Part shown: in pieces, positions 22 through 33,726 of the stretch
Layout: each line of letters begins with the position of its first letter
How positions within the stretch are numbered: position 1 is the stretch's first letter
IMG/VR virus record: IMGVR_UViG_3300036944_000372
Span: 1-38,006 of that record
Strand: one strand, 5' to 3'
DNA: 38,006 nt
DNA from: a virus
Program-made: the position numbers and the translations under genes
Notes under the pieces: generated by a model
What the model was told of the DNA's origin: nothing
The model's database searches: none
What the model saw: only the letters and a program-made list of their open reading frames with translations

Positions 22-47
22 GAGTAGTCCCATCGCTACACGTGTAA

Positions 48-557: not shown

Positions 558-766
558 TGAAACAAAGTATATACGAAATATTTACCTTTATTATAGTAGT
601 TGGCATCATGATAACGGCTTTATCGGTGCCATTCTATTATTTATGGAATTGGTTGTTTATAAAATTCTTTTGGTTTGATTATATCGATTATTTAGAGGCT
701 ATTGGATTTGTTAGTTTTCTATTTCTATTTCGATTTATTGCCATTGAGGTTAAAGCGACTAAATGA
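557..766 (+). CDS. Small two-span membrane protein between terminase genes
   Basis: This 69-residue protein is not recognised. Nearly the whole chain is hydrophobic: one segment at about residues 8-30 and a second at about 44-64, with Trp/Phe-rich residues between (LWNWLFIKFFW), so it should sit in the inner membrane. It overlaps the small terminase by one base (TAATG) and the large terminase by four (ATGA), so it is translated as part of the packaging operon. An unrelated membrane gene wedged between terS and terL is unusual. It may be a cargo gene, for example superinfection exclusion, but nothing in the sequence shows this. Confidence 0.65.
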   Translation: MKQSIYEIFTFIIVVGIMITALSVPFYYLWNWLFIKFFWFDYIDYLEAIGFVSFLFLFRFIAIEVKATK

Positions 767-2430
767 AATTTATTGAGGATGTTGTTTCGGGGAATATAAT
801 ATTAGGCAATTATGCAAGGTTAGCTGTTCAAAGGCATTTGAATGATTTGAAAAATAAAAAATGGGATTATGTTTACTCCGAAGCACACGCCAACAGGGCT
901 TTTGGTTTTATATCAGCCCTTAGGCATACTAAAGGTGAATACGCTGGACAAAGATTTAATATTCAACCTTTTCAAGAATTTTTTATTAAAGTCCTGTTTG
1001 GTTGGCAAAGAAAGGAAGGAGGCAGGCGATTTCGAAAGGCATATCTTGAAATAGCAAGAAAGAACGGTAAAACAGAATTAGCGGCTGCCATTGCGGTTTA
1101 TTGTTTCCTATGTGACAATGAAACGGGTGCGGAAGTATATACGGCTGCAACTACGAGGGATCAAGCTAGGATTGCTTTTGATACGGCAAAGGTATTTCTA
1201 AAATCATTAAAGGTAGATTCAAGAACATTTAACAAGTTAGTCAATGTCCTAAAATATAATTGCAACGTTCCATCTACTAACTCAAAGTTTGAAGCCGTAT
1301 CTGCTGATGCCAATACCCTTGATGGATTAAATCCACACTTTGCAGGAATTGACGAATATCATTCACATAAAACAAGCGATGTTTTAGAGGTAATGGAGAC
1401 TGGTATGGGCTCCAGAACGCAGCCATTACTTTTAATTACTACGACTGCAGGATTTAACCGAGAATCACCTTGTTATCAATTCCGAAAAGTAATGGTTGAT
1501 ATTTTAGAAAAAAGAAAGGTGGATGAATCTGTATTTCCTTTGTTGTTTTGCTTAGATGAAGGCGATGACTGGCAGGATAAAAAGAACTGGACAAAATCCA
1601 ATCCTAATCTTGGCGTCACTCCGTACATTAGTTACATGGATGACCAATTTCAAAAAGCATTAAACGAAGGGGCCGCAAAGCAAATACAATTTATGACTAA
1701 GAATTTGAACGTATGGACAACTACCTCCAGTGTCTGGATATCTAATAGTTATATTGAGGCTACAAGATTAAAATTAGACGATGACGTACTTTATAATAAA
1801 AAGTGCTTCGCTGGATTAGACTTAGCTTCTACGCGTGATATTGCAGCTTTGGTTCTTTGTTTTCCCGTACAACAGGGGATTGATAAACCACATATAAAAT
1901 CCTATTTCTTTTGTCCGGAAGATAACGTACGAGAAAGATCTCTTTCGGATGGCGTAAACTACATTCAATGGGCACAGGATGGCGATATTGTTATGACAGA
2001 CGGCAACGTTACAGATTACGACTTTATAAAAGCTAAAGTAATTGAATTAACGGCAAAGTATAAAATCGAGTGCATAGCTTTTGACCGATGGAATGCAAGC
2101 CAACTTGTTATCCAGTTAACAAACGACGGAGCAACTATGAAACCTTTCGGACAGGGATTTATTTCTATGTCCGCTCCAACTAAAGAAGTCGAAAAGATGT
2201 TTTTATCTTCAGAAATTACACACGACGGAAATCCAGTAATGGAGTGGATGATGTCAAACGTTATGCTTAGATTTGACCCTGCTGGAAATATAAAAATAGA
2301 TAAGGCGAAGTCAACTGAAAAGGTAGATGGGCCCGTAGCGATGGTAATGGCATACGCTCAAATCATGGTAGAGGATAAACCAACTATTTACACGTCTGGT
2401 GAACGCCAACAAGGCTTATTAATGTTATAG
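763..2430 (+). CDS. terL: Terminase large subunit
   Basis: This 555-residue protein is the packaging ATPase and nuclease that pumps DNA into the prohead. The ATPase part has a Walker A-like motif ARKNGKTE (about residues 98-105) and a Walker B-like IDEYH (about 196-200), followed by a Thr-rich coupling segment (LLLITTTAG). The C-terminal RNase H-like nuclease has GLDLAS (acidic D353) and a second acidic position in AFDRWN (D441). Length and motif order match the HK97/P27-type Terminase_1 family. It starts in an ATGA overlap with the preceding gene and ends in TAG. Confidence 0.95.
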   Translation: MKFIEDVVSGNIILGNYARLAVQRHLNDLKNKKWDYVYSEAHANRAFGFISALRHTKGEYAGQRFNIQPFQEFFIKVLFGWQRKEGGRRFRKAYLEIARKNGKTELAAAIAVYCFLCDNETGAEVYTAATTRDQARIAFDTAKVFLKSLKVDSRTFNKLVNVLKYNCNVPSTNSKFEAVSADANTLDGLNPHFAGIDEYHSHKTSDVLEVMETGMGSRTQPLLLITTTAGFNRESPCYQFRKVMVDILEKRKVDESVFPLLFCLDEGDDWQDKKNWTKSNPNLGVTPYISYMDDQFQKALNEGAAKQIQFMTKNLNVWTTTSSVWISNSYIEATRLKLDDDVLYNKKCFAGLDLASTRDIAALVLCFPVQQGIDKPHIKSYFFCPEDNVRERSLSDGVNYIQWAQDGDIVMTDGNVTDYDFIKAKVIELTAKYKIECIAFDRWNASQLVIQLTNDGATMKPFGQGFISMSAPTKEVEKMFLSSEITHDGNPVMEWMMSNVMLRFDPAGNIKIDKAKSTEKVDGPVAMVMAYAQIMVEDKPTIYTSGERQQGLLML

Positions 2431-2432
2431 AA

Positions 2433-2696
2433 ATGTACCTAATTGACAAAATAAAAATATCAATTATGGAAAAGTTAATGACAAAACAGGATTACGCCAA
2501 ACAAGTCAGGCAAATTAATTCTATCGATGGATATTTTAATAGGTTTTATGAGTTATCTGGAGAATGTCGAACACATCAAGAAGCATGGTTAAAATTAGAG
2601 GAAGAAAGAGACACCTTTGGACTTGATGAAAAATATAAGACATACGATAGTTTTAGAAAAGCAAAAAGCCTTTACATGGTAATTAGGTTTGTGTAA
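2433..2696 (+). CDS. Hypothetical protein between terminase and portal
   Basis: This 87-residue protein is not recognised. It starts two bases after the terL stop; an internal ATG at 2466 (MEKLMTKQDYAKQ) is an equally good start and would give 76 residues. The sequence is hydrophilic and probably helical, with a charged middle (LKLEEERDTF). Bacteroidota phages often carry a small unknown gene here. It is the last gene before the promoter-like box and hairpin that precede portal. Confidence 0.6.
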   Translation: MYLIDKIKISIMEKLMTKQDYAKQVRQINSIDGYFNRFYELSGECRTHQEAWLKLEEERDTFGLDEKYKTYDSFRKAKSLYMVIRFV

Positions 2697-2735
2697 CCTG
2701 TTACCAAAAGTACATAACTTCATACTAATCTGATA

Positions 2736-2743
2736 TATATTTG
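2736..2743 (+). promoter_or_regulatory. Candidate promoter -7 box TATATTTG upstream of portal
   Basis: TATATTTG fits the Bacteroidota -7 consensus TAnnTTTG. Transcription would start about seven bases downstream, at or within the portal start codon (2748), implying a leaderless or nearly leaderless message. No convincing -33 TTG element is visible. The 8-mer occurs by chance in AT-rich DNA, so support comes only from its position in a 51-base intergenic gap. Confidence 0.4.
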
Positions 2744-2781
2744 CCGCATGGGAATATTTAACTCCATGCGGTCTTTTTTTT
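2744..2781 (+). terminator. Terminator-like hairpin spanning the portal start codon
   Basis: CCGCATGG (2744-2751) pairs perfectly with CCATGCGG (2764-2771) around a 12-base loop, and eight T residues follow (2774-2781). This is a textbook intrinsic terminator shape, but it contains the portal ATG (2748) in its 5' arm. It may attenuate transcription between terminase and head genes, hide the start codon, or both. Confidence 0.6.
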
Positions 2782-3998
2782 CTAATACTAGAGCAAGTAT
2801 TGAAAATCCTAACACTCCTTTAAACGGTGATACATTAGGCGCATTATTTCAGCGAGGTTCTACTGCTGGTGTTGCGGTCGATGAATATTCAATTATAGGT
2901 CTTCCTGCATTTTATAGAGCTACTCAAATATTAGGAGGTGTCATTGCCTCTATTCCTTTTGATATTATCGAAAAACAGGACAATGGATTTATAAGGATAG
3001 CAAAAGACCATTCTAATTACAAAGTAATAGCAAGAGAGCCATCAGACCTATACACATCTCACACGTTTTATAAAACAATGGTACTTCACTATTTATCACA
3101 TGGTGCTTTTTACGCGTCGATAAATAGAAATAGCATAACCACAAGAATAAACTCATTCACTATTCTCAATCCTACTAAAATGGAAATGAGTTACAATAGT
3201 AGGAATGAACTTGTATTTAAGAATAAAGAGAATAATAAAACATACAGGAGCGAGAATATTATTTACATTCCAAATCTTGCATGGGATGGAGTTAAGGCGT
3301 TGTTAGTGCCAGACGTTCACCGTGACAATTTTGGGCTTGCTTTAGCAAATAGAAATTACGGTGCTAACTTTTACAAAAACGGTGCGCACTTAAACGGTGT
3401 TTTAAAACATCCTGGAAGATTAACAAATGAAGCGTACGATAGATTAAAAGGTAGTTTTAACCGTGCTTTTGGTGGTAGTCAAAACGCTGGAGGTACTGCC
3501 ATTTTAGAGGAAGGCATGGATTTCCAAAAAGTAGGGCTTAACCCTGCTGATGCTGCATTTAACGAAACTAAAAAAGCTACTATTTCCGATATAGCAAGGA
3601 TTACAGGTGTTCCAGGTGTTTTATTGGAAGATATGGATAAAGCAACTTTTGGTAATATGGAACAGTTGAGCCAAATGTTTGTGAACTACACAATAATGCC
3701 TCTTTGCGAGACAATCGAATCAGAGTTTAATAGAAAGATATTTTTTGAGGTTGAGAAAGATAAGTTTAGCACACGATTTAATTTAGATGGGTTACTTCGC
3801 GGTGACGTTGCGGCACGATCTTCTTATTATACAACTATGCGAAATGTTTTAGCTATGTCACCAAATGAAATTAGGATTAAAGAAAATATGAATCCTTATC
3901 CAGGTGGAGATTCTTATGAATTGCCTTTAGCTTCTAACATTAAGATAGAACCAACAAACGAAACTATAAACGACGATAGTAACGATACTAACGATTAA
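2748..3998 (+). CDS. Portal protein, HK97 family
   Basis: This 416-residue protein forms the dodecameric ring at the capsid vertex through which DNA passes. The family pattern is clear: an N-terminal MGIF start, a GLPAFYRATQILGGVIAS region, a central fold with HYLSHGAFYASI, and the wing/stem segment around ISDIARITGVPGVLLEDMDKA. The C-terminus is acidic and Asn/Asp-rich. It stands directly before protease and capsid, as in HK97. The start at 2748 matches family N-termini, although it lies inside a hairpin; the next in-frame ATG at 2766 is the alternative. Confidence 0.93.
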   Translation: MGIFNSMRSFFSNTRASIENPNTPLNGDTLGALFQRGSTAGVAVDEYSIIGLPAFYRATQILGGVIASIPFDIIEKQDNGFIRIAKDHSNYKVIAREPSDLYTSHTFYKTMVLHYLSHGAFYASINRNSITTRINSFTILNPTKMEMSYNSRNELVFKNKENNKTYRSENIIYIPNLAWDGVKALLVPDVHRDNFGLALANRNYGANFYKNGAHLNGVLKHPGRLTNEAYDRLKGSFNRAFGGSQNAGGTAILEEGMDFQKVGLNPADAAFNETKKATISDIARITGVPGVLLEDMDKATFGNMEQLSQMFVNYTIMPLCETIESEFNRKIFFEVEKDKFSTRFNLDGLLRGDVAARSSYYTTMRNVLAMSPNEIRIKENMNPYPGGDSYELPLASNIKIEPTNETINDDSNDTND

Positions 3999-5849: not shown

Positions 5850-5878
5850 GGGATGGGTAGAAATATCCATCCCTTCTT
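5850..5878 (+). terminator. Terminator hairpin after capsid gene
   Basis: GGGATGG (5850-5856) pairs with CCATCCC (5867-5873) around a 10-base loop and is followed by TTCTTT. It sits 11 bases after the capsid stop. It probably trims transcription after the highly expressed head genes. An in-frame ATG at 5853 lies inside this stem and is therefore an unlikely start for the next gene. Confidence 0.65.
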
Positions 5879-20777: not shown

Positions 20778-21065
20778 CTAACTTATATATTTCTTTAATA
20801 AAGTTAATGCTAATTCTCTAACATTATCTCCATTTGATTCTTTATAAATCCTATAGGCTATTGTAATCATTCTTCCAGGCTCCATCATTTGCATTGGTGC
20901 CCTTTCATCTTTCATTAAAGGGTCAAGATAAAATTTAAGGATAGTTAATTTTGCCACTGTACCCTCGGCATATTTAATAGGTTTTGGATATTGCCTAGAA
21001 ATCTTTTCAATCTCTTTCCATGTTGTGACACTAATGCCGTCAATCATTTCACTATTTCTTTTCAT
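20778..21065 (-). CDS. Hypothetical protein at the end of the leftward operon
   Basis: This 95-residue protein is not recognised. It is helical and moderately basic (SVTTWKEIEKISRQYPKP, then LKFYLDPLMKDERAPMQM). I start it at 21065 (MKRNSEM), which overlaps the resolvase gene by 14 bases; an ATG at 21047, four bases after the resolvase stop, is a good alternative. It is the promoter-distal gene of the leftward unit. Confidence 0.6.
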   Translation of the reverse strand: MKRNSEMIDGISVTTWKEIEKISRQYPKPIKYAEGTVAKLTILKFYLDPLMKDERAPMQMMEPGRMITIAYRIYKESNGDNVRELALTLLKKYIS

Positions 21066-21543
21066 GTTTTTGGTAATTTTTAGCCTGTAAAGCAAGAGTA
21101 AAACAATCAATTTCGTCCTGACTTATTTTGGCTGGTTTAAAATTTGGTTCAAATTTGTAGCCTTCATTCTGAAATACTTTCATAAATATTTCCTTTCCCC
21201 ATTTTTTACCCTTTTGTTCCGGGGAAATATTATAGGCTTCACAACCATTTTCCTTAATCCATTCATAGGCTATTCGCGAAGCTGCTTGGTTCATGCCTAC
21301 ATTTCGGGACATACGGGAAAGAATCGCGCGGTTAATGGAAGAGTTGAAAGTTACATTCTGGAGGCTACTATCTTCAACTAAAACAACAGAGTTTGGATAA
21401 TCCATATGCCAGTAAAAAGAGTCTTCCAAAAAATCTACAAACCTTTTGTATTTTTTAAATTCAACTTCTTTGTCTGACTTTATAAAACAAGCTGCCATTC
21501 CGTTTATTCTTATAGCTGGGTCAACTCCTATGTATGTTCTCAT
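21052..21543 (-). CDS. RuvC-like Holliday junction resolvase
   Basis: This 163-residue protein has the RNase H-like fold signature of RuvC-type resolvases: YIGVDPAIRINGMAACF with Asp8 on the first strand, VVLVEDSS with Glu57 and Asp58 on the fourth, and a C-terminal helix with the acidic cluster Asp143, Glu144 and Asp146 (ISQDEIDCFTLAL). Such enzymes resolve branched DNA before packaging. This agrees with the RecT/RecE-like genes upstream. It overlaps the preceding gene by four bases (ATGA). Confidence 0.8.
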   Translation of the reverse strand: MRTYIGVDPAIRINGMAACFIKSDKEVEFKKYKRFVDFLEDSFYWHMDYPNSVVLVEDSSLQNVTFNSSINRAILSRMSRNVGMNQAASRIAYEWIKENGCEAYNISPEQKGKKWGKEIFMKVFQNEGYKFEPNFKPAKISQDEIDCFTLALQAKNYQKHEKK

Positions 21544-21920
21544 TCGTTTTTAATTATTTTAATCATTTTTTGCAAACTATGTATTTCAGCTTCTTCGTAT
21601 TTTTCAAACAATTCATGTTTAAAGCAATAGGTACTTGTTTCGATGTTAAAAACCTGAGAAGCCCATTTAAAATTTAACCTATAAATTGCGCCTTCCAAAC
21701 TATATTTTTCCCTAAAAAATCTAAATGCTTGGGATAAAGTTGGAGCTAAAATAATTCCTGATTTTTTAGTTCCTTCGTATGCCCAACCATTATTTATATC
21801 AACTGATATATTTGTTCTTAATTTACCAGAAATATTATAATAATATGTAAAACAAGGTTCATCGAATCCAAGTTCTTTAAGCTCTAAAGCCATTCCATAG
21901 CTTACAAATTCTTTTTCCAT
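21540..21920 (-). CDS. Conserved hypothetical protein of Bacteroidota phages
   Basis: This 126-residue protein has a pattern I recognise as widespread in Bacteroidota phages and prophages but without assigned function: KEFVSYGMALELKELGFDEPC near the start and ILAPTLSQAFRFFREKYSL in the middle. The second half is helical with an acidic stretch. It sits two bases after the four-span membrane gene and overlaps the resolvase by four bases. Confidence 0.7.
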   Translation of the reverse strand: MEKEFVSYGMALELKELGFDEPCFTYYYNISGKLRTNISVDINNGWAYEGTKKSGIILAPTLSQAFRFFREKYSLEGAIYRLNFKWASQVFNIETSTYCFKHELFEKYEEAEIHSLQKMIKIIKNE

Positions 21921-21922
21921 AA

Positions 21923-22459
21923 TTAAAATAGTGATAATTGATATGAGGTAATATTTCTTCTAATATTCTTAGGTACTTCTTCATTGGCATTCTTAACAAT
22001 GATTTTACGCCTCCTACGCTTTATAATTTTTGGCTCATTAATACCGTAGGCTTCTACTCCTTTATCCACAAAGTTTATTTCCAAAAGATAGCCAAAAACT
22101 ATAATAGTTCCAACAAATAAAAACATAGTTATATACTCGCCACCTTCATAATGTTCCTGCAATCCAAAGAATATTTCTATTAAAGCCACAATAGTCGCTC
22201 CTAATGCTATTTTAGGTGGGTAAGTACTTCTACCTTTAGTGGGATTAAGAAAGTCCATGAAAACGACGGCAAATCGCCCTAATTGAAGAATAGAGGATGC
22301 AATAATAGCTAACCAAAAATCTAATGGTAAAAATATGGCGGTTAGATAGGCGTTTATGCCATACGTCAAAAGGATAGTTATCAGCATAATAGTAGGAATG
22401 TTATCCGATATGCTTTCAAACGTCCATTGAAATTGAGTGTTGGTGAAATTCTTTTCCAT
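21923..22459 (-). CDS. Four-span membrane protein ending in QLSLF
   Basis: This 178-residue protein is not recognised. Four hydrophobic segments lie at about residues 22-44, 47-72, 85-102 and 110-130. A cytoplasmic tail then has a strongly basic patch (KIIKRRRRKIIVK) and ends exactly in QLSLF, the consensus pentapeptide by which proteins bind the bacterial sliding clamp. A membrane protein with a basic patch and a terminal clamp motif could tether the replication machinery to the membrane; this is inference. It lies between small unknown genes in the leftward unit. Confidence 0.7.
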   Translation of the reverse strand: MEKNFTNTQFQWTFESISDNIPTIMLITILLTYGINAYLTAIFLPLDFWLAIIASSILQLGRFAVVFMDFLNPTKGRSTYPPKIALGATIVALIEIFFGLQEHYEGGEYITMFLFVGTIIVFGYLLEINFVDKGVEAYGINEPKIIKRRRRKIIVKNANEEVPKNIRRNITSYQLSLF

Positions 22460-22460
22460 T

Positions 22461-22871
22461 TTAGCCTTGTTTTATTTGCTTATTAGTTTTACCTCCAAAA
22501 AAATTAGACGCCAAATCATTAAAGTCTTTTGTTGCAAATTTTGGTAATCCAAAATCATTTGGATAAAATTGTTTAGGTTCATCTTTTTGAGTAATTACTT
22601 TGTTTTCTTTTAAGTTTAATAATTCTTGTTTTACATCATTCCAATAACCATAACTTATTAATGTTCCTTCGCTATGAATTATTTCAATTATTTCATCAGC
22701 TGCAATTAATGAACAGTTGATAGCAGAATAATAAGATTCCCAATCATTTATATGTTCTTCTGTACAATCTATATAATTATAATTTTCATTATAAGGTCTT
22801 GTGTGATGTTGGAAACTATCTATCAATTCTTTTGCTTTTTCTTTTGGTGTCATTGGTTTATAAGTTTTCAA
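22461..22871 (-). CDS. Hypothetical protein, PKEKAKEL family, long form
   Basis: This 136-residue protein has unknown function. It shares an architecture with the 74-residue gene at 30889-31113. An N-terminal TPKEKAKELID, a middle helix with CSLIAADEIIEI, and YWNDVKQELLNL correspond to SPKEKAKELFD, CALFAVLEILEI and YWLEVKEEINNL there. This copy has a longer insert and a C-terminal extension of about 45 residues. The family is common among small early genes of Bacteroidota phages. It overlaps the preceding gene by 14 bases. Confidence 0.65.
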   Translation of the reverse strand: MKTYKPMTPKEKAKELIDSFQHHTRPYNENYNYIDCTEEHINDWESYYSAINCSLIAADEIIEIIHSEGTLISYGYWNDVKQELLNLKENKVITQKDEPKQFYPNDFGLPKFATKDFNDLASNFFGGKTNKQIKQG

Positions 22872-23094
22872 GTTCTTTAGTTAATGTTAATATTTTTTCT
22901 TTTAAAGTAAAAATGGAATGTAATACTATTTCAATTACAACTTCTTTATCAAGAATAATAAAACTATTTATTTCATGTAGCTTACCAAATTTGATATTAT
23001 GTGTTTCGCTAAATGTTAAATAATGCAGTGATTCTTTATATTCATTAATTTTTTGCAAAATATCAGATGCTTTTTTTGCTTGTTCTAAATTCAT
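22858..23094 (-). CDS. Small helical hypothetical protein
   Basis: This 78-residue protein is not recognised. It is mostly helical with heptad-like leucines at the C-terminus (HSIFTLKEKILTLTKELENL) and an N-terminal NLEQAKKASDILQKI. The start region carries the leader AAAAACCAAAATC before ATG, shared with the gene at 29514-29771. It overlaps the following gene by 14 bases. Confidence 0.6.
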   Translation of the reverse strand: MNLEQAKKASDILQKINEYKESLHYLTFSETHNIKFGKLHEINSFIILDKEVVIEIVLHSIFTLKEKILTLTKELENL

Positions 23095-23112
23095 GATTTT
23101 GGTTTTTTAAGT

Positions 23113-23958
23113 TTAAAATTGATTGTATTCTTTTTTCAAAGGGAAATTATCCCTTTTGATTTGCCAGTATTCAGCCATTAATGACGCTCTAAATTTGTAA
23201 TCGGTATCCGTGTGGTATCCCGATTTGTAAACACATTTACAAATAGATTCATATAGCTTTATTCCTTTCATCCTGTAATTTGCCTTTTTGCAAGCCGCGT
23301 ATCTTCCTGAATTAAGAACGCCTGCCCAAAGCTTCATGCCTTTTTCTGTTGATTCAGCACTCATAAATTTAGCCCTGATAAACTTGTTTTTGCCTCTGAT
23401 GACTTCCCGTGTTTTGTACGTCACATAACCATGGCCTTTAAGAGCTTTAACTCCTCCAGCGTTGGCATGCTTGCGCCACAATTCAGTTTCAACTCCTTGT
23501 GAAGTTGCCTCAATGATAAAAAAAGAATAAATCATTGATACAGGAAAATCGGTTAAAACGTGAACGTTCATCAGCATACTTTCGTAGCAATAAGCAAGGT
23601 ATATGCGACGTAATTTAGACCTGTCAACTCCTTTTAAATTCCTAAAACCGCGACCTTCCAATGTTTTACGAAGTTGTTCCCCTGATAACTTGCGCACTTC
23701 CCATCCGTATGAACGAGATCCGTAGGCGCTTTCATCTATTTCCTTCTTTTCATCTTTGCCCTGGATAGTGAGCGATGTTATTTTGTGAACGTAAACCGTA
23801 TCTTTTTGAATGATGGGAACAAAGGAAGTGTAATTGTATTGGGTATTGATTGGTGAATAAATCAACCCAACAACAAAAGCAACTCCAACGGCTCCAGCAA
23901 TCTGGTAGGGTAAACGTTTATTTTGTGGGACATAAGTCTCAATAATTGGATTTTTCAT
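23113..23958 (-). CDS. Membrane-anchored glucosaminidase-like muramidase
   Basis: This 281-residue protein has one N-terminal membrane segment (about residues 18-35, YQIAGAVGVAFVVGLIYS), an extracytoplasmic spacer, and a domain from about residue 130 resembling FlgJ-type endo-beta-N-acetylglucosaminidases: FPVSMIYSFFIIEATSQG with candidate catalytic Glu150, then HANAGGVKALKG and a KFMSAESTEKGMKLWAGVL segment. It would cut peptidoglycan from the periplasmic face. It lies in the leftward unit, away from the lysis cassette, so it may serve another purpose or act as a second endolysin. Family call is moderate. Confidence 0.65.
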   Translation of the reverse strand: MKNPIIETYVPQNKRLPYQIAGAVGVAFVVGLIYSPINTQYNYTSFVPIIQKDTVYVHKITSLTIQGKDEKKEIDESAYGSRSYGWEVRKLSGEQLRKTLEGRGFRNLKGVDRSKLRRIYLAYCYESMLMNVHVLTDFPVSMIYSFFIIEATSQGVETELWRKHANAGGVKALKGHGYVTYKTREVIRGKNKFIRAKFMSAESTEKGMKLWAGVLNSGRYAACKKANYRMKGIKLYESICKCVYKSGYHTDTDYKFRASLMAEYWQIKRDNFPLKKEYNQF

Positions 23959-23960
23959 AA

Positions 23961-24224
23961 TTAACCGATTAAAGGTTCAGCGTAAAAATATCCTCCATCG
24001 TGTTCGATAGTTTCGTCGTGTGCATCCGCAATAACATTGCCATCGCAATCCTTTACAAGACCTCCCCATAAAAAATCTTCTTCAGGGAAGTAATTTTCGT
24101 TTTGCATTTTTGAATAAACTTGTTCAACAGCGTGTCTCTTAGAGTAGGCAGCTACCTCTTCGCATAAATCCTGATAGATTGTAGCGTTACCGAAGTACAT
24201 CACGGTGTAAATCATTTTTTCCAT
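23961..24224 (-). CDS. Hypothetical acidic protein
   Basis: This 87-residue protein is not recognised beyond a small-phage-protein look. It is acidic and aromatic-rich, with YTVMYFGNATIYQDLCEEV near the start, FLWGGLVKDCDGNVIADAHD in the middle and DGGYFYAEP at the end. No metal-binding or catalytic motif is evident. It lies two bases upstream of the glucosaminidase gene and is the first gene after a terminator-containing gap. Confidence 0.6.
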   Translation of the reverse strand: MEKMIYTVMYFGNATIYQDLCEEVAAYSKRHAVEQVYSKMQNENYFPEEDFLWGGLVKDCDGNVIADAHDETIEHDGGYFYAEPLIG

Positions 24225-24317
24225 TTGTTAAAATTTAGTAGTAATAAAAATGTTTTTTTGTTTCTTTTGTAAAAATATGTATAAATAATTATATAAAAAA
24301 ATATTTATGTATTTATT

Positions 24318-24349
24318 TAAAAAAAATCCCATACCGAAAGATATGGGAT
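24318..24349 (-). terminator. Intrinsic terminator, leftward
   Basis: ATCCCATA (24326-24333) pairs with TATGGGAT (24342-24349) around an 8-base loop. On the minus strand the stem is followed by a run of T. It lies 25 bases past the stop of the 48-residue gene at 24375-24521. The next 93 bases before 24224 are extremely AT-rich and could hold a promoter, but I see no clear TAnnTTTG box there. Confidence 0.8.
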
Positions 24350-24374
24350 TAAAAACAACACTTTTAACAACTAA

Positions 24375-24521
24375 TTACTTAGCAAACTTACTAATGGAAA
24401 TTTCTTTATCTGGAACCTCAATTTTTAGCTTCTTAAAATTTTCTATCGCCTCTTCAACCGTCGGGGCGTTGGTGATTATTCTGCCTGACTTCCATTTTAT
24501 TTCCCAATACATTAGTACCAT
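24375..24521 (-). CDS. Small hypothetical protein (48 residues)
   Basis: This short open frame starts with MVLMYWEIKWKSGRI and ends in ISKFAK. Its start overlaps the stop of the preceding membrane gene by 10 bases, and its stop is followed by an intrinsic terminator, so it is placed exactly as the last gene of a unit. The charged, non-repetitive sequence (PTVEEAIENFKKLKIEVPDK) looks coding. No function can be given. Confidence 0.6.
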   Translation of the reverse strand: MVLMYWEIKWKSGRIITNAPTVEEAIENFKKLKIEVPDKEISISKFAK

Positions 24522-24640
24522 TTTTTTAAAGTGTCAACAATAAAATAAATGGCATAAGACAGCGTCAAGATACCTCCAGCGGCTACAATAATGAGAGCCA
24601 AATCCTTACCTAATTTTTGTTTCTCTTTTTCAGTCAACAT
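24512..24640 (-). CDS. Small single-span membrane protein (42 residues)
   Basis: The frame starts at 24640 with MLTEKEKQKLGKDLALIIV. One membrane segment covers about residues 15-34, followed by a short KKWY end. I prefer this start to the ATG at 24721, which would add a lysine-rich stretch overlapping the upstream gene. It overlaps the 100-residue gene upstream by 11 bases and the next gene by 10. Confidence 0.58.
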   Translation of the reverse strand: MLTEKEKQKLGKDLALIIVAAGGILTLSYAIYFIVDTLKKWY

Positions 24641-24932
24641 GATTTTTTTCTTTTTGTTTTTTACGATATTCGGCTTGATAAGCCCTATTTTTTTCTTTAT
24701 GTTTATTACGATATTCGGCATTTTTAACTAATATTTTCTCCCTATTTTGTTGATAGTAAAGCCTGTTTTTTATGCTTTGTATTTTTTTTTCTTCGGGAGT
24801 TGTAATTTTATTTCTTTTGGCATTGTATTCTTTTAACTTAAGTCGTTTTTTTTCTCTTTGAAAACGGCTCAAATTGTTTTTAAGATTTATGCGATAAGCA
24901 GTTCTTTTAGCCTTTATTTCTTCTTCGGTCAT
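24630..24932 (-). CDS. Lysine/arginine-rich repeat protein
   Basis: This 100-residue, very basic protein is built of repeats with spaced Tyr, Lys and Arg (EKILVKNAEYRNKHKEKNRAY, then QAEYRKKQKEKN). Similar basic repeats form long helices in many phage small proteins and probably bind nucleic acid. I chose the ATG at 24932 because a 39-residue membrane gene ends two bases before it; the ATG at 25007 would overlap that gene. It resembles the protein at 35454-35678 in composition. Confidence 0.6.
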   Translation of the reverse strand: MTEEEIKAKRTAYRINLKNNLSRFQREKKRLKLKEYNAKRNKITTPEEKKIQSIKNRLYYQQNREKILVKNAEYRNKHKEKNRAYQAEYRKKQKEKNHVD

Positions 24933-24934
24933 GG

Positions 24935-25054
24935 CTATCGGTTTACTAAATAATAAATTAAATTTAAAAATAGACCTAAGCCAGTCAATAAAACTACCAT
25001 TAACCATATAATAAAATTAAATATATATAATTCATTTACTTGCTTTTTTGTCAT
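24935..25054 (-). CDS. Small single-span membrane protein (39 residues)
   Basis: The frame starts MTKKQVNELYIF and has one membrane segment of about 22 residues (IIWLMVVLLTGLGLFLNLIY), ending in LVNR. It fits precisely between its neighbours: it starts two bases after the dCTP deaminase stop and ends two bases before the next start. Both it and the next gene have the leader ATAGCC before ATGAC. Function unknown. Confidence 0.6.
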   Translation of the reverse strand: MTKKQVNELYIFNFIIWLMVVLLTGLGLFLNLIYYLVNR

Positions 25055-25056
25055 GG

Positions 25057-25590
25057 CTATTTGTTTAAATAGTTCTTTGAGGCAACTGGATTTTTTCCCT
25101 GGTCTTTATACTTTGCATCCGCTTTATTTGCATAGTCTGTGTAAGGCATTTCCGAAATGTCATGATAACAGATTTGCGCTATCTTCATGCCTGGATATAT
25201 TTTGACTGGCTGGATGCAAGCAAGTTCTAAAGTCCAATGTCCTTTAAAATTCACATCTCCAAAACCTGCGGTTATATGAACGAATAAGCCTAACCTGCCT
25301 AAACTTGATTTGCCTTGAATGATTGGAACGTGCCGAAGTGTCTCCGTATATTCTACGGTTGAGGCAAGATATAAAATACCCGGTTGCAAAATCATACCTT
25401 CTTCGGGAATAATAATTTCTGCCGTTTGAGGCTTCTTCCTGACGTCAAGAACATGGTCGGTGTACATTAATAAAGTTTTGGATAGCGTTAAATCTACGCT
25501 ATTAGTACCAATGTTTGCCTCGATTAATGGCTCAATGACAATGTTGCCAGCTGCTATTTCGTCAATAATGGTCTTGTCTGTTAAAATCAT
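25057..25590 (-). CDS. dcd: dCTP deaminase
   Basis: This 177-residue enzyme converts dCTP to dUTP and ammonia, feeding dTTP synthesis. Family motifs are plain: NSVDLTLS near residue 30, GKSSLGRLGL (93-102), ITAGFGDVNFKGHWTLEL with the candidate general base Glu122, and a C-terminal tail with a Tyr/Lys-rich closing segment. Length is normal for the monofunctional enzyme. It overlaps the upstream gene by four bases. Together with the dATP/dGTP pyrophosphohydrolase-like gene it suggests the phage adjusts the dNTP pool. Confidence 0.92.
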   Translation of the reverse strand: MILTDKTIIDEIAAGNIVIEPLIEANIGTNSVDLTLSKTLLMYTDHVLDVRKKPQTAEIIIPEEGMILQPGILYLASTVEYTETLRHVPIIQGKSSLGRLGLFVHITAGFGDVNFKGHWTLELACIQPVKIYPGMKIAQICYHDISEMPYTDYANKADAKYKDQGKNPVASKNYLNK

Positions 25591-25826
25591 TTTTCTTCTT
25601 TTTTATAAGTTTCGTTGTAATATTGTTCTGCCGATATAGTTATAAAATTTCCAAAATCTGAAAGGTAATCTCTTTCATCTCCATGAGCTTCCATTATCTG
25701 CTCATTTTCCATTTCTTTGGCGATTCTAAACTGCTCTTTGTATTTATTTCTAAGGACTTCTGAATCAAAAGAAACAATTCCAAGTAATTTTAATTCTAAA
25801 ATTTCAACAGCGGTTAGTTTGCTCAT
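25587..25826 (-). CDS. Hypothetical protein in the nucleotide-metabolism cluster
   Basis: This 79-residue protein is not recognised. It is helical and acidic with LTAVEILELKLLGIVSF at the start and FGNFITISAEQYYNETYKK at the end. Four-base overlaps on both sides tie it to the dATP/dGTP pyrophosphohydrolase-like gene and to dCTP deaminase. A helper role in the same pathway is possible but unsupported. Confidence 0.6.
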   Translation of the reverse strand: MSKLTAVEILELKLLGIVSFDSEVLRNKYKEQFRIAKEMENEQIMEAHGDERDYLSDFGNFITISAEQYYNETYKKEEK

Positions 25827-26224
25827 TTCTTTAAATCATTTAGTTCTGGGTGAGTAAAATAAAACTCCGTCAACATTGCAGCGTTTGCCATTAGGTGTGC
25901 GGAATGCAAAAGTCCACTTTCTTCGTCAATCATTTCACCAAGTCGCATGGCTTCAAGGTGACGCATGGCGGAGGCGATCACTTCTGAAAATAAAAAACCT
26001 TTTTCCCAATTTCTGGCAGGATATTTTTTTAATCCTTCAGTCCAAACCTTCGCGTATTCCCTTTGCGCAATGGCTGGGCAAAGGTCGTATCTTAGCTTAT
26101 TTTCATTTATCCTAAATGCTTTGTTTTCGTCATAGTCAGGATTCCTACCCGAAGCTTTCATTAGTTCATCAACGCTTAGTTCTGAATTTTTAAAATATTT
26201 GTCATAAATGTTTTCTATTGCCAT
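25823..26224 (-). CDS. dATP/dGTP pyrophosphohydrolase-like protein (DUF5664 type)
   Basis: This 133-residue all-helical protein matches the phage family once called DUF5664, now dATP/dGTP diphosphohydrolase: LRYDLCPAIAQREYAKVWTEG, KKYPARNWEKG, FSEVIASAMRHLEAMRLGE, and the acidic DEESGLLHSAHLMANAAML. The spaced Glu, His and Asp residues probably bind the metal. I use the ATG at 26224 (MAIENIY), which sits just after a 39-base leader repeated upstream of the preceding gene. Substrate is inferred from the family. Confidence 0.78.
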   Translation of the reverse strand: MAIENIYDKYFKNSELSVDELMKASGRNPDYDENKAFRINENKLRYDLCPAIAQREYAKVWTEGLKKYPARNWEKGFLFSEVIASAMRHLEAMRLGEMIDEESGLLHSAHLMANAAMLTEFYFTHPELNDLKK

Positions 26225-26260
26225 AATTATCATTTTGTTGAGGTCAACGATATGGTTTAA
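26222..26260 (-). repeat. Duplicated 39-base leader, copy A
   Basis: These 39 bases match 26431-26469 with one mismatch. On the minus strand each copy ends at an ATG and has ACAAAATGATAATT immediately before it. This copy has the near-palindrome GTTGACCTCAAC. It includes the stop of the small membrane gene upstream. Confidence 0.9.
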
Positions 26261-26433
26261 CGAAAAAATCCAATTAACCAAATTGGACAATAAAATATCC
26301 AAGCCACAAATCTTTCAGTAAGACTTACTGCTAAGTTTTCTTTGCCTATTTCTTTACAGTCGTTTCTCCAAATTAAATAAAATGGTATAAATAAAACAAG
26401 TTGTAATAATATACAAATTAATAATGTTTTCAT
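26257..26433 (-). CDS. Small membrane protein (58 residues)
   Basis: This protein is not recognised. Two hydrophobic segments are visible, about residues 3-22 (LLICILLQLVLFIPFYLIW) and 42-57 (FVAWIFYCPIWLIGF), joined by a charged loop. I start it at 26433 (MKTLL) because copy B of the 39-base leader ends exactly there. It is the first gene downstream of the structured non-coding region. Confidence 0.6.
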   Translation of the reverse strand: MKTLLICILLQLVLFIPFYLIWRNDCKEIGKENLAVSLTERFVAWIFYCPIWLIGFFR

Positions 26434-26469
26434 AATTATCATTTTGTTGACGTCAACGATATGGTTTAA
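26431..26469 (-). repeat. Duplicated 39-base leader, copy B
   Basis: This is the second copy of the repeat at 26222-26260 (38 of 39 bases). Here the centre is a perfect 12-base palindrome GTTGACGTCAAC. On the minus strand it ends in the start codon of the small membrane gene. It could be an operator, an RNA hairpin in the leader or a translation-initiation region copied with its gene. Confidence 0.9.
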
Positions 26470-26834
26470 AATTGCCGTCTTTCCGTGCTGTCACCCGTTT
26501 ATTTTTCGCTTTGAGGACTTTATGGGTTAAGCCCTATTTAACCCTAAGCGTTTAGGGCTGCCTGCATACGGCATAAACCTGTGGCAACTTTTCTTTAACG
26601 TTTATGCCATGCTAAGTGCAAGGGCAGGATTTGATACCTGCACAGCGCGACCTTCTAATTTAGAGTACTAATGTCGTGCGCTTACGTTCTAAATTATAGC
26701 GTCTAACTTCCGCCACCTTGCTATTTATCTGTCTAATTCCAGATTGCCAATTCATCCTCTGACGCTTTTAGGTTGAAAGAAATGTTTAATTAGGGGAAAA
26801 TAACATTTACCTAAACCCGAGGTCTGCAAATATC
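26470..26834 (-). ncRNA. Gene-free structured region, candidate non-coding RNA
   Basis: No convincing protein is encoded in these 365 bases, yet they are higher in GC than the neighbours (28 of 60 bases in 26521-26580) and full of inverted repeats. In order on the minus strand: TTTAGGT+AAATGTT (plus-strand arms 26767-26773 and 26780-26786, partners 26802-26815), a tRNA-like cloverleaf (26618-26721), a 9-bp stem extended by 4 bp (26564-26578 with 26600-26612), and three mutually exclusive 6-7 bp helices in 26524-26558. Orientation is assumed from the surrounding leftward genes. No known RNA family was recognised. Confidence 0.55.
26618..26721 (-). ncRNA. tRNA-Leu-like cloverleaf element
   Basis: On the minus strand GCAAGG (26721-26716) pairs with CCTTGC (26623-26618) like an acceptor stem, followed by TGGCGGAAGTTAGACGC, close to the D-arm of bacterial tRNA-Leu. 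A 9-bp arm TAATTTAGA/TCTAAATTA replaces the anticodon stem and has a 23-base loop. A T-arm-like hairpin GCAGG/CCTGC has an 8-base loop TATCAAAT. The GG of the D-loop is missing, the acceptor is 6 bp and no CCA follows, so this is not a normal tRNA. It may be a decayed tRNA or a tRNA mimic. Confidence 0.45.
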
Positions 26835-27245
26835 TTATGTAGTCATGTGACCGACCAATATTCTTTCCTGCCTAAAGCTACTAAGCAAAGTTCTATAATT
26901 ATCCGAAGTTACTAATAATAACTTTTGAACGGCTCTACATTGCTCAAATATTGCCGTAGCTTTTGGGTATTTCCCTTTAACATAAAAATCGGTTAATGTG
27001 GAGGAGTGCTTAACTCTTTTATACTCCTCCTCTGGCATATCTCTAATACAACTCATCATAAGATAAGAATAAATACTTTCGTTCATGCCAGATATAACCG
27101 TATAGCGAGAGTAATAACCCGATAATTGACGAAGGTACTCGTCACATTCGTCTAGCATTTCAGCCGACGGGGCTGTACTTATCCAGGCGTTAACCTCTTC
27201 ACAAAAAGCCTTAATTTCTAACATCTTGCTATTATACTCTTTCAT
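26835..27245 (-). CDS. Hypothetical protein upstream of the structured region
   Basis: This 136-residue protein is not recognised. It is helical with EIKAFCEEVNAWISTAPSAEM near the start, a Tyr/Met-rich middle (IYSYLMMSCIRDMPEEEY) and a C-terminal helix with YRTLLSSFRQERIL. No domain motif is evident. It is the last gene before the gene-free region in the direction of transcription. Confidence 0.62.
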   Translation of the reverse strand: MKEYNSKMLEIKAFCEEVNAWISTAPSAEMLDECDEYLRQLSGYYSRYTVISGMNESIYSYLMMSCIRDMPEEEYKRVKHSSTLTDFYVKGKYPKATAIFEQCRAVQKLLLVTSDNYRTLLSSFRQERILVGHMTT

Positions 27246-27254
27246 GATAGTTTT

Positions 27255-27482
27255 TTAAAATGGGAATCTTTCGTCGCTTATCATTCCATCGGTGTATTTT
27301 ACTCCCTTTTCGTAGCCTTTTTCAAAAGCTTCATCTCTATCTGATTTAACTTGTTCATAGAGTTTTTCTACTTCAATCAAATCTTGTTCAAGTTCTTCTA
27401 TTTTTTTTCTTAACAATATGAAAACTTCATTCATATCATTTAATATATCATCCAATACTCTTTCTAATGATTTGTCGTTCAT
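27255..27482 (-). CDS. Small coiled-coil protein, copy 1
   Basis: This 75-residue protein is acidic and mostly coiled coil (VFILLRKKIEELEQDLIEVE) with the C-terminal pattern SDRDEAFEKGYEKGVKY. The next gene upstream (27507-27716) ends in a related pattern, NELNSAFSMGKKYGCEL, so the two are probably distant paralogues. Function unknown; possible oligomerisation or partner-binding role. Confidence 0.6.
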   Translation of the reverse strand: MNDKSLERVLDDILNDMNEVFILLRKKIEELEQDLIEVEKLYEQVKSDRDEAFEKGYEKGVKYTDGMISDERFPF

Positions 27483-27506
27483 CTTAATTTATTTTATCCT
27501 TTTGTT

Positions 27507-27716
27507 TTAAAATGAATTTGGTTTATTTCTTTTTAATTCACATCCGTATTTCTTTCCCATTGAAAAAGCTGAATTTAATTCATTTTCATGTTTTTCTTTT
27601 GCTTTTTTTATAATATTATTAGTTTCTTTTAATTTATTCATGGGTATAAAAATCATATTTGATAAATTTTTTAATAAAAAATCTAAAGATGTTAAATTCT
27701 CTTCTGGTATTTCCAT
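27507..27716 (-). CDS. Small coiled-coil protein, copy 2
   Basis: This 69-residue protein has a hydrophobic/charged helical first half (LTSLDFLLKNLSNMIFIPM) and a C-terminal ENELNSAFSMGKKYG segment resembling the gene at 27255-27482. It follows the RecE-like nuclease by 11 bases upstream and could be an accessory in the recombination cluster. No function is assigned. Confidence 0.58.
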   Translation of the reverse strand: MEIPEENLTSLDFLLKNLSNMIFIPMNKLKETNNIIKKAKEKHENELNSAFSMGKKYGCELKRNKPNSF

Positions 27717-27727
27717 AATAATTTATT

Positions 27728-28531
27728 TTAAAAATCAAAAAATCCTTCACTATCTCCCCAAAACTCGGGGCCCATATCCATGCCCTCCATATTTACCCGA
27801 TGTGCCGCTGCGATTAATCTATGCCATTGCCATCGAGCTTTTTCCCTAGCGTCACGGGAAATCTTAAAAGGAGTAACATATCCTTCATTATCAACCGCAA
27901 TAATAAAGTAATCAACTGGTATATTTTCAATATCGTATTTATGGCAGTAAATGGCAGCCTGTAAATCGTATTGATTATGCCTAATTTGGCTTCTTACAAG
28001 TTGTTCACCAGAACGCGCACCCATTCGTTTTAAATCCCAAATAACGTGCTTACCATTTCTGTCTAATCCTTCAGCATCTTTAATTCCTTTGTGTTTAAAT
28101 CCTTTATAAAAAAAATCGGTGGTTACTTGAAATTTAAAGTTATCCGCATGAAGTAAACCCTGAAACACAACCGTACTATTATTTCGTACACATTCAGCTA
28201 TTAACTCGCTATCGTCGTATTGGTCTTGCGTAATAACGATTTTATTACCTATTTGAGCCTGAATAGATTCCCATTTTTTAATTTGCTCTAAAGTTTCGGG
28301 AGCTGGCTTTTTAGCGTTTATTTGTGAGCTCGTTGGCTTCTTTACACCTTCAGGCATAATAAAAAATCTATCCTTAAATGTGTCTTTTTCAAACAAAAGG
28401 CAATCTAATAAAGTACCTTCATCCATTGCTTTAGTGGATGTTCTTGTCTGCTCAATATATCTTTTAAGGCATAAAGGCGAATGAGATAAAGCCTTTAATC
28501 TCGAAAAACTAAGATGGGTTATTTCATTCAT
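27728..28531 (-). CDS. RecE-like PD-(D/E)XK exonuclease (DUF3799 type)
   Basis: This 267-residue protein partners with RecT: it would resect double-stranded ends to expose single strands for annealing. Features are an N-terminal LSFSRLKALSHSPLCLKRYIE opening, EGTLLDCLLFE, and the nuclease core KGIKDAEGLDRNGKHVIWDLK with the Asp and the Asp-Leu-Lys of the PD-(D/E)XK motif, followed by a Gln/Tyr helix (NQYDLQAAIYCHKY). I start it at 28531 (MNEITHLSF), overlapping recT by 8 bases. Confidence 0.85.
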   Translation of the reverse strand: MNEITHLSFSRLKALSHSPLCLKRYIEQTRTSTKAMDEGTLLDCLLFEKDTFKDRFFIMPEGVKKPTSSQINAKKPAPETLEQIKKWESIQAQIGNKIVITQDQYDDSELIAECVRNNSTVVFQGLLHADNFKFQVTTDFFYKGFKHKGIKDAEGLDRNGKHVIWDLKRMGARSGEQLVRSQIRHNQYDLQAAIYCHKYDIENIPVDYFIIAVDNEGYVTPFKISRDAREKARWQWHRLIAAAHRVNMEGMDMGPEFWGDSEGFFDF

Positions 28532-29297
28532 TTGTTTTGTTTTGAATAGCATTAGCCATTTCGGTAAATAAAGCAGCGTGTTCTTTATATGCTAAATTTG
28601 ATTTGTATAAAATAGTTAATTCTTCTAAAGTAGCACAATTGATTATCTTATTTTTCAATTCATCAATATCTAATCCTACTGCTGGTTTAACTTCCGCAGC
28701 CTGTATAGTAGCATCTTCAAAAGCGGCTTTTTCTTCTTCAATATGTAGTCCTGAAAGTTCATCACTAAAAGCAATCTTTAAAGCCTTCGCCCTGGCACAT
28801 TTGGCGATCATGTTAAATGGCATTGTTGCAGCTTTAGAATAGCTATCTTTTCCCGATGAAACGGCTGGATAATATTCCGAAAACAAAACCGTGGCGGTAA
28901 ATGGGCAGCGAATCCCTCCAACAATAGCCCACACTGTTACCGTGCAGGAAATAGGCATTTCTTTTGCAGCTTTTAGTTGGCTAGATGTTTGGTAAGTGCC
29001 GTCGGACATTCTGTTATATTGCTCTTCGTCTATTCCTGCAAACCTTCCAGTACGCGCCGCCTTTTGCTGTAGTCCATCTATTCCGACAATAGTATGGTAT
29101 TTCATACCGTCGCGGCTGTTATATGCGACTAGGTAAATCTCTTTTTTAAAAGGCGATAAACCATGTTGTCGGCAACTTTCAGCAAATACCTCAACCTGTG
29201 CGGCTGGTGTTCCAGCAGGAATAACGCCTGCCTGTGCTAATGTTTCAATTTGTGCGGGCGTTATCCCAATTTTCGCTACTTCCATATTATTCTGCAT
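28524..29297 (-). CDS. RecT/Bet family single-strand annealing protein
   Basis: This 257-residue protein binds single-stranded DNA and promotes annealing and strand exchange. The Bet/RecT pattern is clear: CRQHGLSPFKKEIYLVAYNS, KYHTIVGIDGLQQKAARTG, and the conserved C-terminal part with MPFNMIAKCARAKALKIAFS, DELSGLH and EE. The C-terminal 60 residues are a variable acidic tail. It is directly followed by its nuclease partner. ATG at 29285, just after the upstream stop, is an alternative start. Confidence 0.93.
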   Translation of the reverse strand: MQNNMEVAKIGITPAQIETLAQAGVIPAGTPAAQVEVFAESCRQHGLSPFKKEIYLVAYNSRDGMKYHTIVGIDGLQQKAARTGRFAGIDEEQYNRMSDGTYQTSSQLKAAKEMPISCTVTVWAIVGGIRCPFTATVLFSEYYPAVSSGKDSYSKAATMPFNMIAKCARAKALKIAFSDELSGLHIEEEKAAFEDATIQAAEVKPAVGLDIDELKNKIINCATLEELTILYKSNLAYKEHAALFTEMANAIQNKTNE

Positions 29298-29517
29298 CTA
29301 ATTGTTCCATCATTTTTTTAAAAGTCAATCTTTCGCTTACGTAATCAAAATCTATTGATTCAACCATTAGGCTGTTAAAAAGCGATTTATATTGAGGCAA
29401 AATATTTTCAAAGTTAAAAATATCGTCGATTGCCTTTTCTACACCTTCAACCGAAGTGTCTTTTATGTGATAAACGTCTAAAAGATAGTTTAGCACCATT
29501 AGATTAGTATCGTTCAT
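29287..29517 (-). CDS. Hypothetical acidic protein upstream of recT
   Basis: This 76-residue protein is not recognised. It is helical and acidic (TSVEGVEKAIDDIFNFENIL) and ends LTFKKMMEQLDAE. It overlaps recT by 11 bases and the upstream gene by four (ATGA), so it is part of the recombination operon. Function unknown. Confidence 0.6.
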   Translation of the reverse strand: MNDTNLMVLNYLLDVYHIKDTSVEGVEKAIDDIFNFENILPQYKSLFNSLMVESIDFDYVSERLTFKKMMEQLDAE

Positions 29518-29771
29518 AATATTGATTTAAGTTTAAGTTCTTCGATAAACTTGTTATTGTCTTTAATAGCTTGTTCCAAAATGTCTTTATAATATCTGTG
29601 ATTAAAATTACTATCATCAACATCATTGACTACTGGTATTTGGTTTATAATATTTAGCATATATTCCAATCTATGTGCGCCTTCTTTACTAATGGTATTT
29701 GTCACCATTGCATAAATGGATATTTGGTAAAATGCCTCTAAAATAGCTTTTTGTCTTTCTTCTGGTGTCAT
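29514..29771 (-). CDS. First gene of the recombination operon, hypothetical
   Basis: This 85-residue helical protein (TPEERQKAILEAFYQISIYA at the start, KDILEQAIKDNNKFIEELKL near the end) is not recognised. I start it at 29771, 14 bases after the predicted transcription start of the TATCTTTG box at 29792-29799; an ATG at 29861 would run back through that promoter and the upstream terminator. Its leader AAAAACCAAAATC before ATG is identical to that of the gene at 22858-23094. Confidence 0.65.
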   Translation of the reverse strand: MTPEERQKAILEAFYQISIYAMVTNTISKEGAHRLEYMLNIINQIPVVNDVDDSNFNHRYYKDILEQAIKDNNKFIEELKLKSIL

Positions 29772-29791
29772 GATTTTGGTTTTTATTAAAT

Positions 29792-29799
29792 CAAAGATA
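29792..29799 (-). promoter_or_regulatory. Candidate promoter -7 box TATCTTTG for the recombination operon
   Basis: On the minus strand TATCTTTG matches TAnnTTTG. It lies just past an intrinsic terminator and 20 bases before the start codon at 29771, where an operon promoter is expected. The same 8-mer marks the leader at 33793-33800. No strong -33 TTG is seen at ideal spacing. Confidence 0.55.
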
Positions 29800-29834
29800 C
29801 AAATAAATAATATTACTTGTATGTATTTTGTATA

Positions 29835-29872
29835 AAAAAAATAAAAAAAGTGAGGCACCAATTATGCCTCAC
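29835..29872 (-). terminator. Intrinsic terminator, leftward
   Basis: GTGAGGCA (29850-29857) pairs perfectly with TGCCTCAC (29865-29872) around a 7-base loop. On the minus strand it is followed by TTTTTTT. It ends the unit containing the gene at 29907-30644. Confidence 0.88.
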
Positions 29873-29906
29873 CAGAAAACCAAATGATATGACAAAAAAC
29901 TAACGA

Positions 29907-30644: not shown

Positions 30645-30667
30645 AATGGTTTGGTTTTTATTGTGTT

Positions 30668-30874
30668 TTAAAATAAACTTAATTGTTTTGGCTCAATTAT
30701 TTCTAATTCGGTAATTTGCCTCATATATTCACCATGCTCCCACTTAAAAGATAACCAACAAATACTCCAGTCGCTATTATTGAAAACAATGTGGTTAATA
30801 ATACCTTTTCTGTTCATCGTTAAGTCTAAAACCTTTTTGCCAATCAATGACTTATAATATATTTCGTTGTTCAT
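30668..30874 (-). CDS. Small protein ending in clamp-binding motif QLSLF
   Basis: This 68-residue protein has an SH3-like look (SLIGKKVLDLTMNRKGIINHI, then WSICWLSFKWEHGEY) and ends exactly in PKQLSLF. QLSLF is the consensus sliding-clamp-binding pentapeptide, and a C-terminal, exposed position is where such motifs work. Located between the initiator and other replication genes, it is a candidate clamp adaptor or clamp blocker. Function is inferred from this motif alone. Confidence 0.65.
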   Translation of the reverse strand: MNNEIYYKSLIGKKVLDLTMNRKGIINHIVFNNSDWSICWLSFKWEHGEYMRQITELEIIEPKQLSLF

Positions 30875-30888
30875 AATGGTTTGGTTTT

Positions 30889-31113: not shown

Positions 31114-31116
31114 AAT

Positions 31117-32079: not shown

Positions 32080-32080
32080 T

Positions 32081-33683: not shown

Positions 33684-33689
33684 AGGTAG

Positions 33690-33726
33690 AAAAAAAATGC
33701 CCCAATAGCTAGACATCTATCGGGGC
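33690..33726 (-). terminator. Strong intrinsic terminator before the DUF4326 gene
   Basis: On the minus strand GCCCCGATAG (33726-33717) pairs with CTATTGGGGC (33708-33699), including one G-U pair, around the 8-base loop ATGTCTAG. After two bases eight T residues follow (33697-33690). The DUF4326 start codon comes seven bases later, so read-through must be regulated or leaky for that gene to be expressed from upstream. Confidence 0.9.

Follow-up and report, generated by a model that had tools for sequence, protein, structure and literature searches.

The window analysed here is the whole stretch of 38,006 nucleotides, a 38-kb tailed-phage record in which an HK97-type portal, a protease and a capsid gene follow the terminase genes. 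The upstream unit holds the terminase large subunit (763..2430, + strand; PF20441 and PF03354) and closes with a called ORF of 87 aa (2433..2696, + strand), which has no match in Pfam or PHROG and whose 3' end lies upstream of the hairpin element described below in the relatives examined. The portal gene (2748..3998, + strand; PF04860, 1.3e-84; phrog_12, 3e-93) is predicted to be leaderless when transcribed from a local promoter.

A compact series of features on the + strand spans the portal start. A predicted Bacteroidota sigma-A -7 element, TATATTTG, was read directly at 2736..2743 and ends where the 5' arm of a stem, CCGCATGG (2744..2751), begins. This arm contains the portal ATG (2748-2750), and position 2748 is also the predicted +1. 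The 12-nt loop (2752..2763) comprises portal codons 2-6 and varies freely at several positions. The 3' arm, CCATGCGG (2764..2771), takes in the end of codon 6, Met7 and Arg8 (CGG), and a TC dinucleotide (2772..2773) separates it from a T8 run (U8 in RNA; 2774..2781), which forms the predicted termination zone and portal codons 9-12. Base 2743 also closes the stem, as a G.U or an A-U pair, and RNAfold draws 10 pairs, counting one G.U pair at either end. The promoter-like box abutting a perfect 8-bp stem, the U8 tract behind it and the portal ATG within the 5' arm had all been proposed in an initial annotation, and each was found at exactly these positions. The second ATG that it had singled out in the 3' arm (2766-2768) is present and in frame; however, CATG is its own reverse complement, so a stem laid across the start codon must carry a second ATG. 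This ATG is therefore a forced by-product of the stem and was set aside as independent evidence. With an 8-bp stem, six G-C pairs and U8 2 nt later, the structure has the form of an intrinsic terminator, although its 12-nt loop is long for a terminator and counts against that reading.

Other features of the record were noted alongside. The early region (21052-36376) encodes a dCTP deaminase, RecT, exonuclease-like proteins, a DnaD/O-like replication initiator, SSB and a DNA methyltransferase, and no integrase was found among the proteins tested. Many related contigs start 2,701-2,718 nt before the portal ATG (at about window 30-47; noted for 1-110), and these starts adjoin HNH genes that lie at the record's opposite end; the shared start may mark where the genome physically ends (cos) or where assembly broke off. 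In 21 of the 22 contig starts shown, a GGGGGTT motif lies shortly 5' of the small terminase gene, and the remaining one does not reach it. Just past the capsid gene and before the head-tail adaptor gene is a 10-bp terminator-like hairpin (5850-5873) that is plausibly a partial terminator. Two strong terminator-like hairpins with U-runs lie on the - strand in the early-gene half, at 29850-29872 and 24326-24349.

The host of this phage group is probably a member of the Bacteroidota, because Shine-Dalgarno-like 4-mers are few (upstream of 2 of the 51 genes) and the upstream regions are A-rich. Across the 51 genes, A dominates 5' of the starts, including positions -3, -6, -11, -12 and -13, and the parts of a published study available to us report an absent Shine-Dalgarno sequence, with adenine at -3 and -6 as positive determinants (PMC6847099). 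The portal alone among the 51 genes has four G/C at -4 to -1, which is a poor context for leadered initiation. No relatives were found in the GTDB genomes searched, and the closest named phages share only ~37% portal identity. The hairpin element has been established solely for a fairly narrow group, portals that share at least ~80% identity.

The hairpin observation is exact and far from chance. A scan for a perfect stem of at least 8 bp with a loop of 3-15, followed within 2 nt by eight bases of which 7 or more are T, returned the portal-start hairpin as the sole match on the + strand of the window, along with two matches on the - strand. Shuffled sequence gave 0.24 such hairpins per strand, and none across 100 shuffles when the arm had to contain 4 or more G/C. 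A ready-made terminator scan, whose loop limit is 8, did not list this hairpin. The 101-nt region has a modest fold z-score (-1.79), and the Rfam search of the window gave 0 matches at the gathering threshold. When the same peptide was randomly recoded with phage codon usage, the 3' arm arose in 0.20% of the recodings and the arm together with U8 in 0.044%. Only the portal start, among the 24 + strand gene starts examined, is covered by a stem of at least 7 perfect pairs. The box is not remarkable alone, with three occurrences of TATATTTG in the window and 42 of TAnnTTTG over both strands, but its position and conservation are; in 10 long records, the box followed by CCGCATG was found a single time per record and not at any other gene.

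Relatives were collected by three portal searches of IMG/VR, the best 80 loci being taken from each, and many contigs recur between searches. Eight standard pairs and at least 7 U were found in 79/79, 75/75 and 76/76 readable loci of these overlapping sets; loci that begin too close to the element (1, 5 and 4) were left out of the counts. In two of the searches (75/75 and 76/76) the query portals lacked their first 30 residues, so that these searches did not select for the hairpin, whereas the search giving 79/79, whose six patterns included MGIFNSMR, retains some of that bias. One of the 75 loci (L289) was judged by eye, its portal match beginning at residue 36, probably through a frame break; the automated count is 74. 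Conservation in related phages had been named beforehand as a check, and these counts bear it out. A scan with the 3' arm and U8 found the exact 5' arm in 77 of 79 readable places among the matches listed (80 loci), with one further listed locus too near a contig end; the two exceptions (L208 and L210) are unrelated contigs with terminator-like hairpins. The converse scan, with the box and 5' arm, found the full hairpin with at least 7 U in 74 of 80 places (the matches listed, of 93 stretches) and in 40 of 57 readable places. The 6 and 17 exceptions do not begin with portal sequence and look like chance matches. When the layout was sought with another outer stem (TTTG-NNNN-ATGG...CCAT), 32 stretches were returned, none of them a portal start, and with this narrow pattern no analogue was found outside this portal group; the only one of the 32 with an ORF of more than 100 aa (L346, 131 aa) has 1 of the 4 outer pairs. 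One contig (L086, portal start at 713 on the reverse strand) has lost the box through a deletion that fuses the middle of the 87-aa ORF to the hairpin's edge, but it keeps the hairpin. With a portal ORF that stops after 180 aa, this contig may be damaged or chimeric and was not used as evidence.

Site-by-site conservation was assessed from 245 regions, of which 234 portals were kept (at least 390 aa, match beginning at residue 1); these comprise 118 distinct portals, 112 at a difference of 1% or more and 79, the representatives, at 5% or more. Changes per site were counted on a tree of the 112 portals with a length of 8.16. The spacer from -51 to -13 has a mean of 8.1 changes per site and the next 40 coding sites a mean of 7.4. 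Across the box the counts are 0, 0, 2, 3, 0, 0, 0 and 3. The sixteen arm sites have no changes, except three with one each, and seven of the eight U8 sites are unchanged, with a single change at the last. The loop ranges from 0 to 18 changes per site, and the third positions of codons 2-5 change 12, 0, 11 and 18 times. Two further blocks on the + strand stand out against the spacer mean, TGTTAC (2699..2704, -49 to -44), with 0-2 changes per site, and TTCATACT (2719..2726, -29 to -22), with 0-5. The exact TTCATACT occurs nowhere else in the window, and both blocks are possible activator or upstream promoter elements.

The main evidence is that a sequence shaped like a terminator is conserved in this way within coding sequence. 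Of 398 degenerate codon columns, no four in succession other than codons 8-11 are free of synonymous variation, and the lowest five-column mean falls at codons 6-11. All 79 representatives encode Arg8 with the rare CGG, a codon that makes up 6 of the 233 Arg codons in 21 structural-side genes and is the commonest at 1 of 19 conserved Arg columns. One portal in the set of 112, outside the 79 representatives, has CTG (Leu) at codon 8 (L064). Of the 15 conserved Ser columns, Ser9 alone keeps one codon throughout. The pair of Phe codons behind U8 carries little weight, because TTT makes up 84% of Phe codons; 5 of 19 Phe columns are invariant. The pairing itself is also maintained. Of the 306 cells given by 34 distinct sequences, 99.7% pair, a share that falls to 25-44% with the arms slid, and six of the nine pairs are invariant. 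The closing pair is G.U in 18 sequences, A-U in 15 and unpaired in one. A compensatory double change, C-G to A-U, occurs in one pair of L064 (one cell of 306), and G-C becomes G.U in two of the 34 sequences, of the L292/L297 type. The covariation is real but thin and weak.

The box was compared with what has been published for Bacteroidota promoters. In F. psychrophilum, the element is given as TAnnTTTG at -12 to -5, and 5.5% of mRNAs as leaderless, in the accessible part of that report (PMC9723704). For F. johnsoniae, the sections available describe 4 or 5 nt from element to start, no G at -10/-9, a much less evident TTTG near -33, with AT-rich motifs, centred at -18 and -28, taking the place of a -33 box (PMC6847099); a similarly consulted account of B. 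thetaiotaomicron reports purines as the preferred initiating bases (PMC7366714). At the portal, T-12, A-11, T-8, T-7 and T-6 are identical in 112/112 portals, and positions -10 and -9 are only A or T. Five random sites from -51 to -5 were all unchanged in 0.013% of draws, a figure that ignores the clustering of conserved sites. Position -5 is G in the window, which matches TAnnTTTG (TAHHTTTG) exactly, and in 77/112 portals, and A in 35/112 (TAnnTTTA), the -12 to -5 placement assuming a +1 at 2748; A in place of the near-invariant G counts against the sigma-A reading. Elsewhere upstream, -29 to -22, T-17 and T-14 are conserved in the 112 portals, and there is no TTTG at ~-33 (2711-2718). Because the variation falls only where the Bacteroidota consensus allows it, apart from -5, the box appears to fit a Bacteroidota sigma-A element and is a predicted promoter. 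Exactly 4 nt separate it from A2748, and the published spacing together with the box position predicts a +1 at A2748, the A of the AUG; the portal mRNA is therefore predicted to be leaderless.

Other candidate promoters were considered. The box TAGGTTTG at 2684 was rejected, its sites changing up to 25 times on the tree. Sigma-70-type promoters were likewise rejected, since a scan gave 69 against 71.3 expected from shuffles and the type is not used by the presumed host. A second TATATTTG lies on the + strand at 36350-36357, 5' of a 44-codon ORF and the HNH/terminase unit, and it could form a divergent promoter pair with a - strand TAnnTTTG at 36307; the 36350 region has only short matches, in 2 of 8 relatives.

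Predicted folding depends sharply on where the RNA begins. The readthrough RNA folds at -15.7 kcal/mol and an RNA starting at 2748 at -2.2, and the means over the 34 distinct variants are -14.6 and -2.0 kcal/mol, respectively. The predicted probability that A2748 is unpaired is 0.001 in the readthrough RNA, so that the start codon is paired in the long transcript as in genes of the T4 gene e type, versus 0.33-0.82, depending on RNA length, for a start at 2748. A start at 2747 gives -4.5 kcal/mol, one at 2746 or earlier gives -9.2 or stronger and leaves a stable hairpin, and one at 2749 would lose the AUG; the modelled start-site margin for escaping the hairpin is narrow.

These features suggest the following mechanism. 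Host RNA polymerase with a Bacteroidota-type primary sigma factor would bind TAnnTTT(G/A) at 2736-2743 and start transcription at A2748, yielding a leaderless portal mRNA that lacks the outer half of the stem. This local transcript could not form the terminator, and its AUG would be mostly free and hence translated. RNA arriving from the terminase genes would carry the whole 5' arm, fold an 8-9 bp hairpin before U8 and be released at ~2779-2781, and in any molecules that read through, the AUG would still be buried. A start inside the stem that tells local from incoming transcripts had been suggested in the initial annotation. The architecture of that switch is supported by the conservation of the arms, U-run and box, by the published spacing and by the predicted loss of the fold, while the action of the promoter and the terminator is a prediction. 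We consider it reasonably likely that these ~46 bases combine promoter, terminator and start codon, and that the portal and head genes respond only to their own promoter.

The same hairpin might instead be a plain intrinsic terminator of the terminase unit that overlaps the portal start by chance, with the box no promoter and the portal read by regulated readthrough or antitermination. The stem and U8 make a good terminator on their own and form the sole such hairpin on the + strand, and the same 3' arm and U8 recur in the terminator-like hairpins of the unrelated contigs L208 and L210. Such a terminator, however, leaves unexplained the invariance of TA..TTT in all 112 portals, where variation is confined to the two n positions and -5, as well as the exact 4-nt spacing between box and AUG, and the RNA reading through it would keep the AUG paired; we regard it as unlikely. 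Slightly less credible again is an attenuator or protein-binding RNA operator, in which the hairpin would be present on all portal transcripts and be opened by a phage protein or another signal. Near-invariant sequence, beyond mere pairing, is what protein-bound RNA would show (six of the nine pairs never vary), and TGTTAC and TTCATACT are conserved upstream, but the loop, usually the recognised part of protein-bound RNA operators, varies freely, by up to 18 changes per site, and the model requires an additional factor.

Two further readings concern the DNA and the start codon. Transcription from 2749, with the 5-nt spacing that the available part of the F. johnsoniae study also gives as common (PMC6847099), would provide a 17-nt leader for AUG2766, which is in frame and invariant; the first AUG would then be the by-product of the stem. 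Against this, the second positions of codons 3-6 never change, whereas their first and third positions do, as in translated codons, and AUG2766 is forced by the pairing. The protein therefore appears to start at AUG2748 rather than at 2766, and we consider the later start improbable. Marginally the least probable of these explanations is a DNA palindrome bound by a dimeric protein, as an operator or a packaging site, with the RNA hairpin as a by-product. The arms are symmetric, conserved and evenly spaced in every relative, as they would be in a DNA dyad; yet the conservation runs on through U8 on one side, oriented with the gene, and the single occurrence of the box plus CCGCATG in each of the 10 long records, at no other gene, also speaks against it.

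We thus return to the combined promoter, terminator and start codon. In its fullest form, to which we give about an even chance, it is an origin-sensing, factor-free switch acting on both transcription and translation, in which one ~46 bp stretch serving as promoter, terminator and leaderless start would sort RNAs by their 5' ends and so separate packaging from the head-tail unit in a large phage group. That the purpose is to keep packaging apart from head genes is what we infer from this arrangement. If true, the element would be a minimal, protein-free insulation of two adjacent phage operons with a simple rule, whereby the position of the 5' end decides the fate of the RNA. Bacteroidota are unlike E. 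coli in their promoters and translation starts, and the element is a possible compact insulator part for Bacteroidota genetics. It would also be a clear case in which an RNA element has left its mark on the N-terminal residues of an essential structural protein (Met7-Arg8-Ser9-Phe10-Phe11). Within the open-licence literature searched, in the portions available, no description of a shared promoter, terminator and leaderless start was found, nor any study of late phage gene control in Bacteroidota.

Parts of this logic are familiar from other systems. In IS10 and IS50, RNA that reads in from outside folds so as to conceal the transposase start, and native transcripts do not. The portal element is predicted to resemble them in masking incoming but not native transcripts; to our knowledge, their protection relies on mobile-element end repeats and involves no terminator, whereas the portal element includes a predicted terminator. 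The lambda cI mRNA from PRM is a leaderless phage mRNA whose +1 is the A of the AUG, and the portal promoter appears to be placed in the same way; we know of no hairpin or terminator at the cI start. In Tn916, an intrinsic terminator near one end is described as an insulator in the portion of the report available (PMC11658703). The portal terminator would similarly shield downstream genes from outside transcription, and the likeness drawn from that portion concerns insulation only; at the portal, terminator, promoter and AUG share the same bases. The closest parallel lies in T4 genes e, soc, 49 and I-TevI, in which, according to the accessible text of two reports, a late promoter is situated next to or within a hairpin, and in the longer early transcripts this hairpin masks the start region (PMC3014915, PMC2988022). 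As predicted here, RNA from the gene's own promoter lacks the 5' arm in the T4 gene e group as there described, and only transcripts from farther upstream form the masking hairpin. The T4 hairpins, as far as those accounts go, hide a Shine-Dalgarno site and/or the AUG and act on translation only. In contrast, the portal element has no Shine-Dalgarno site, its hairpin, with U8 behind it, should end transcription as well, its start is predicted to be leaderless and its promoter to be of the host primary-sigma type. By this comparison, the start-site-dependent masking logic is already known from T4 gene e, and what the portal element would add is an intrinsic terminator and a leaderless start.
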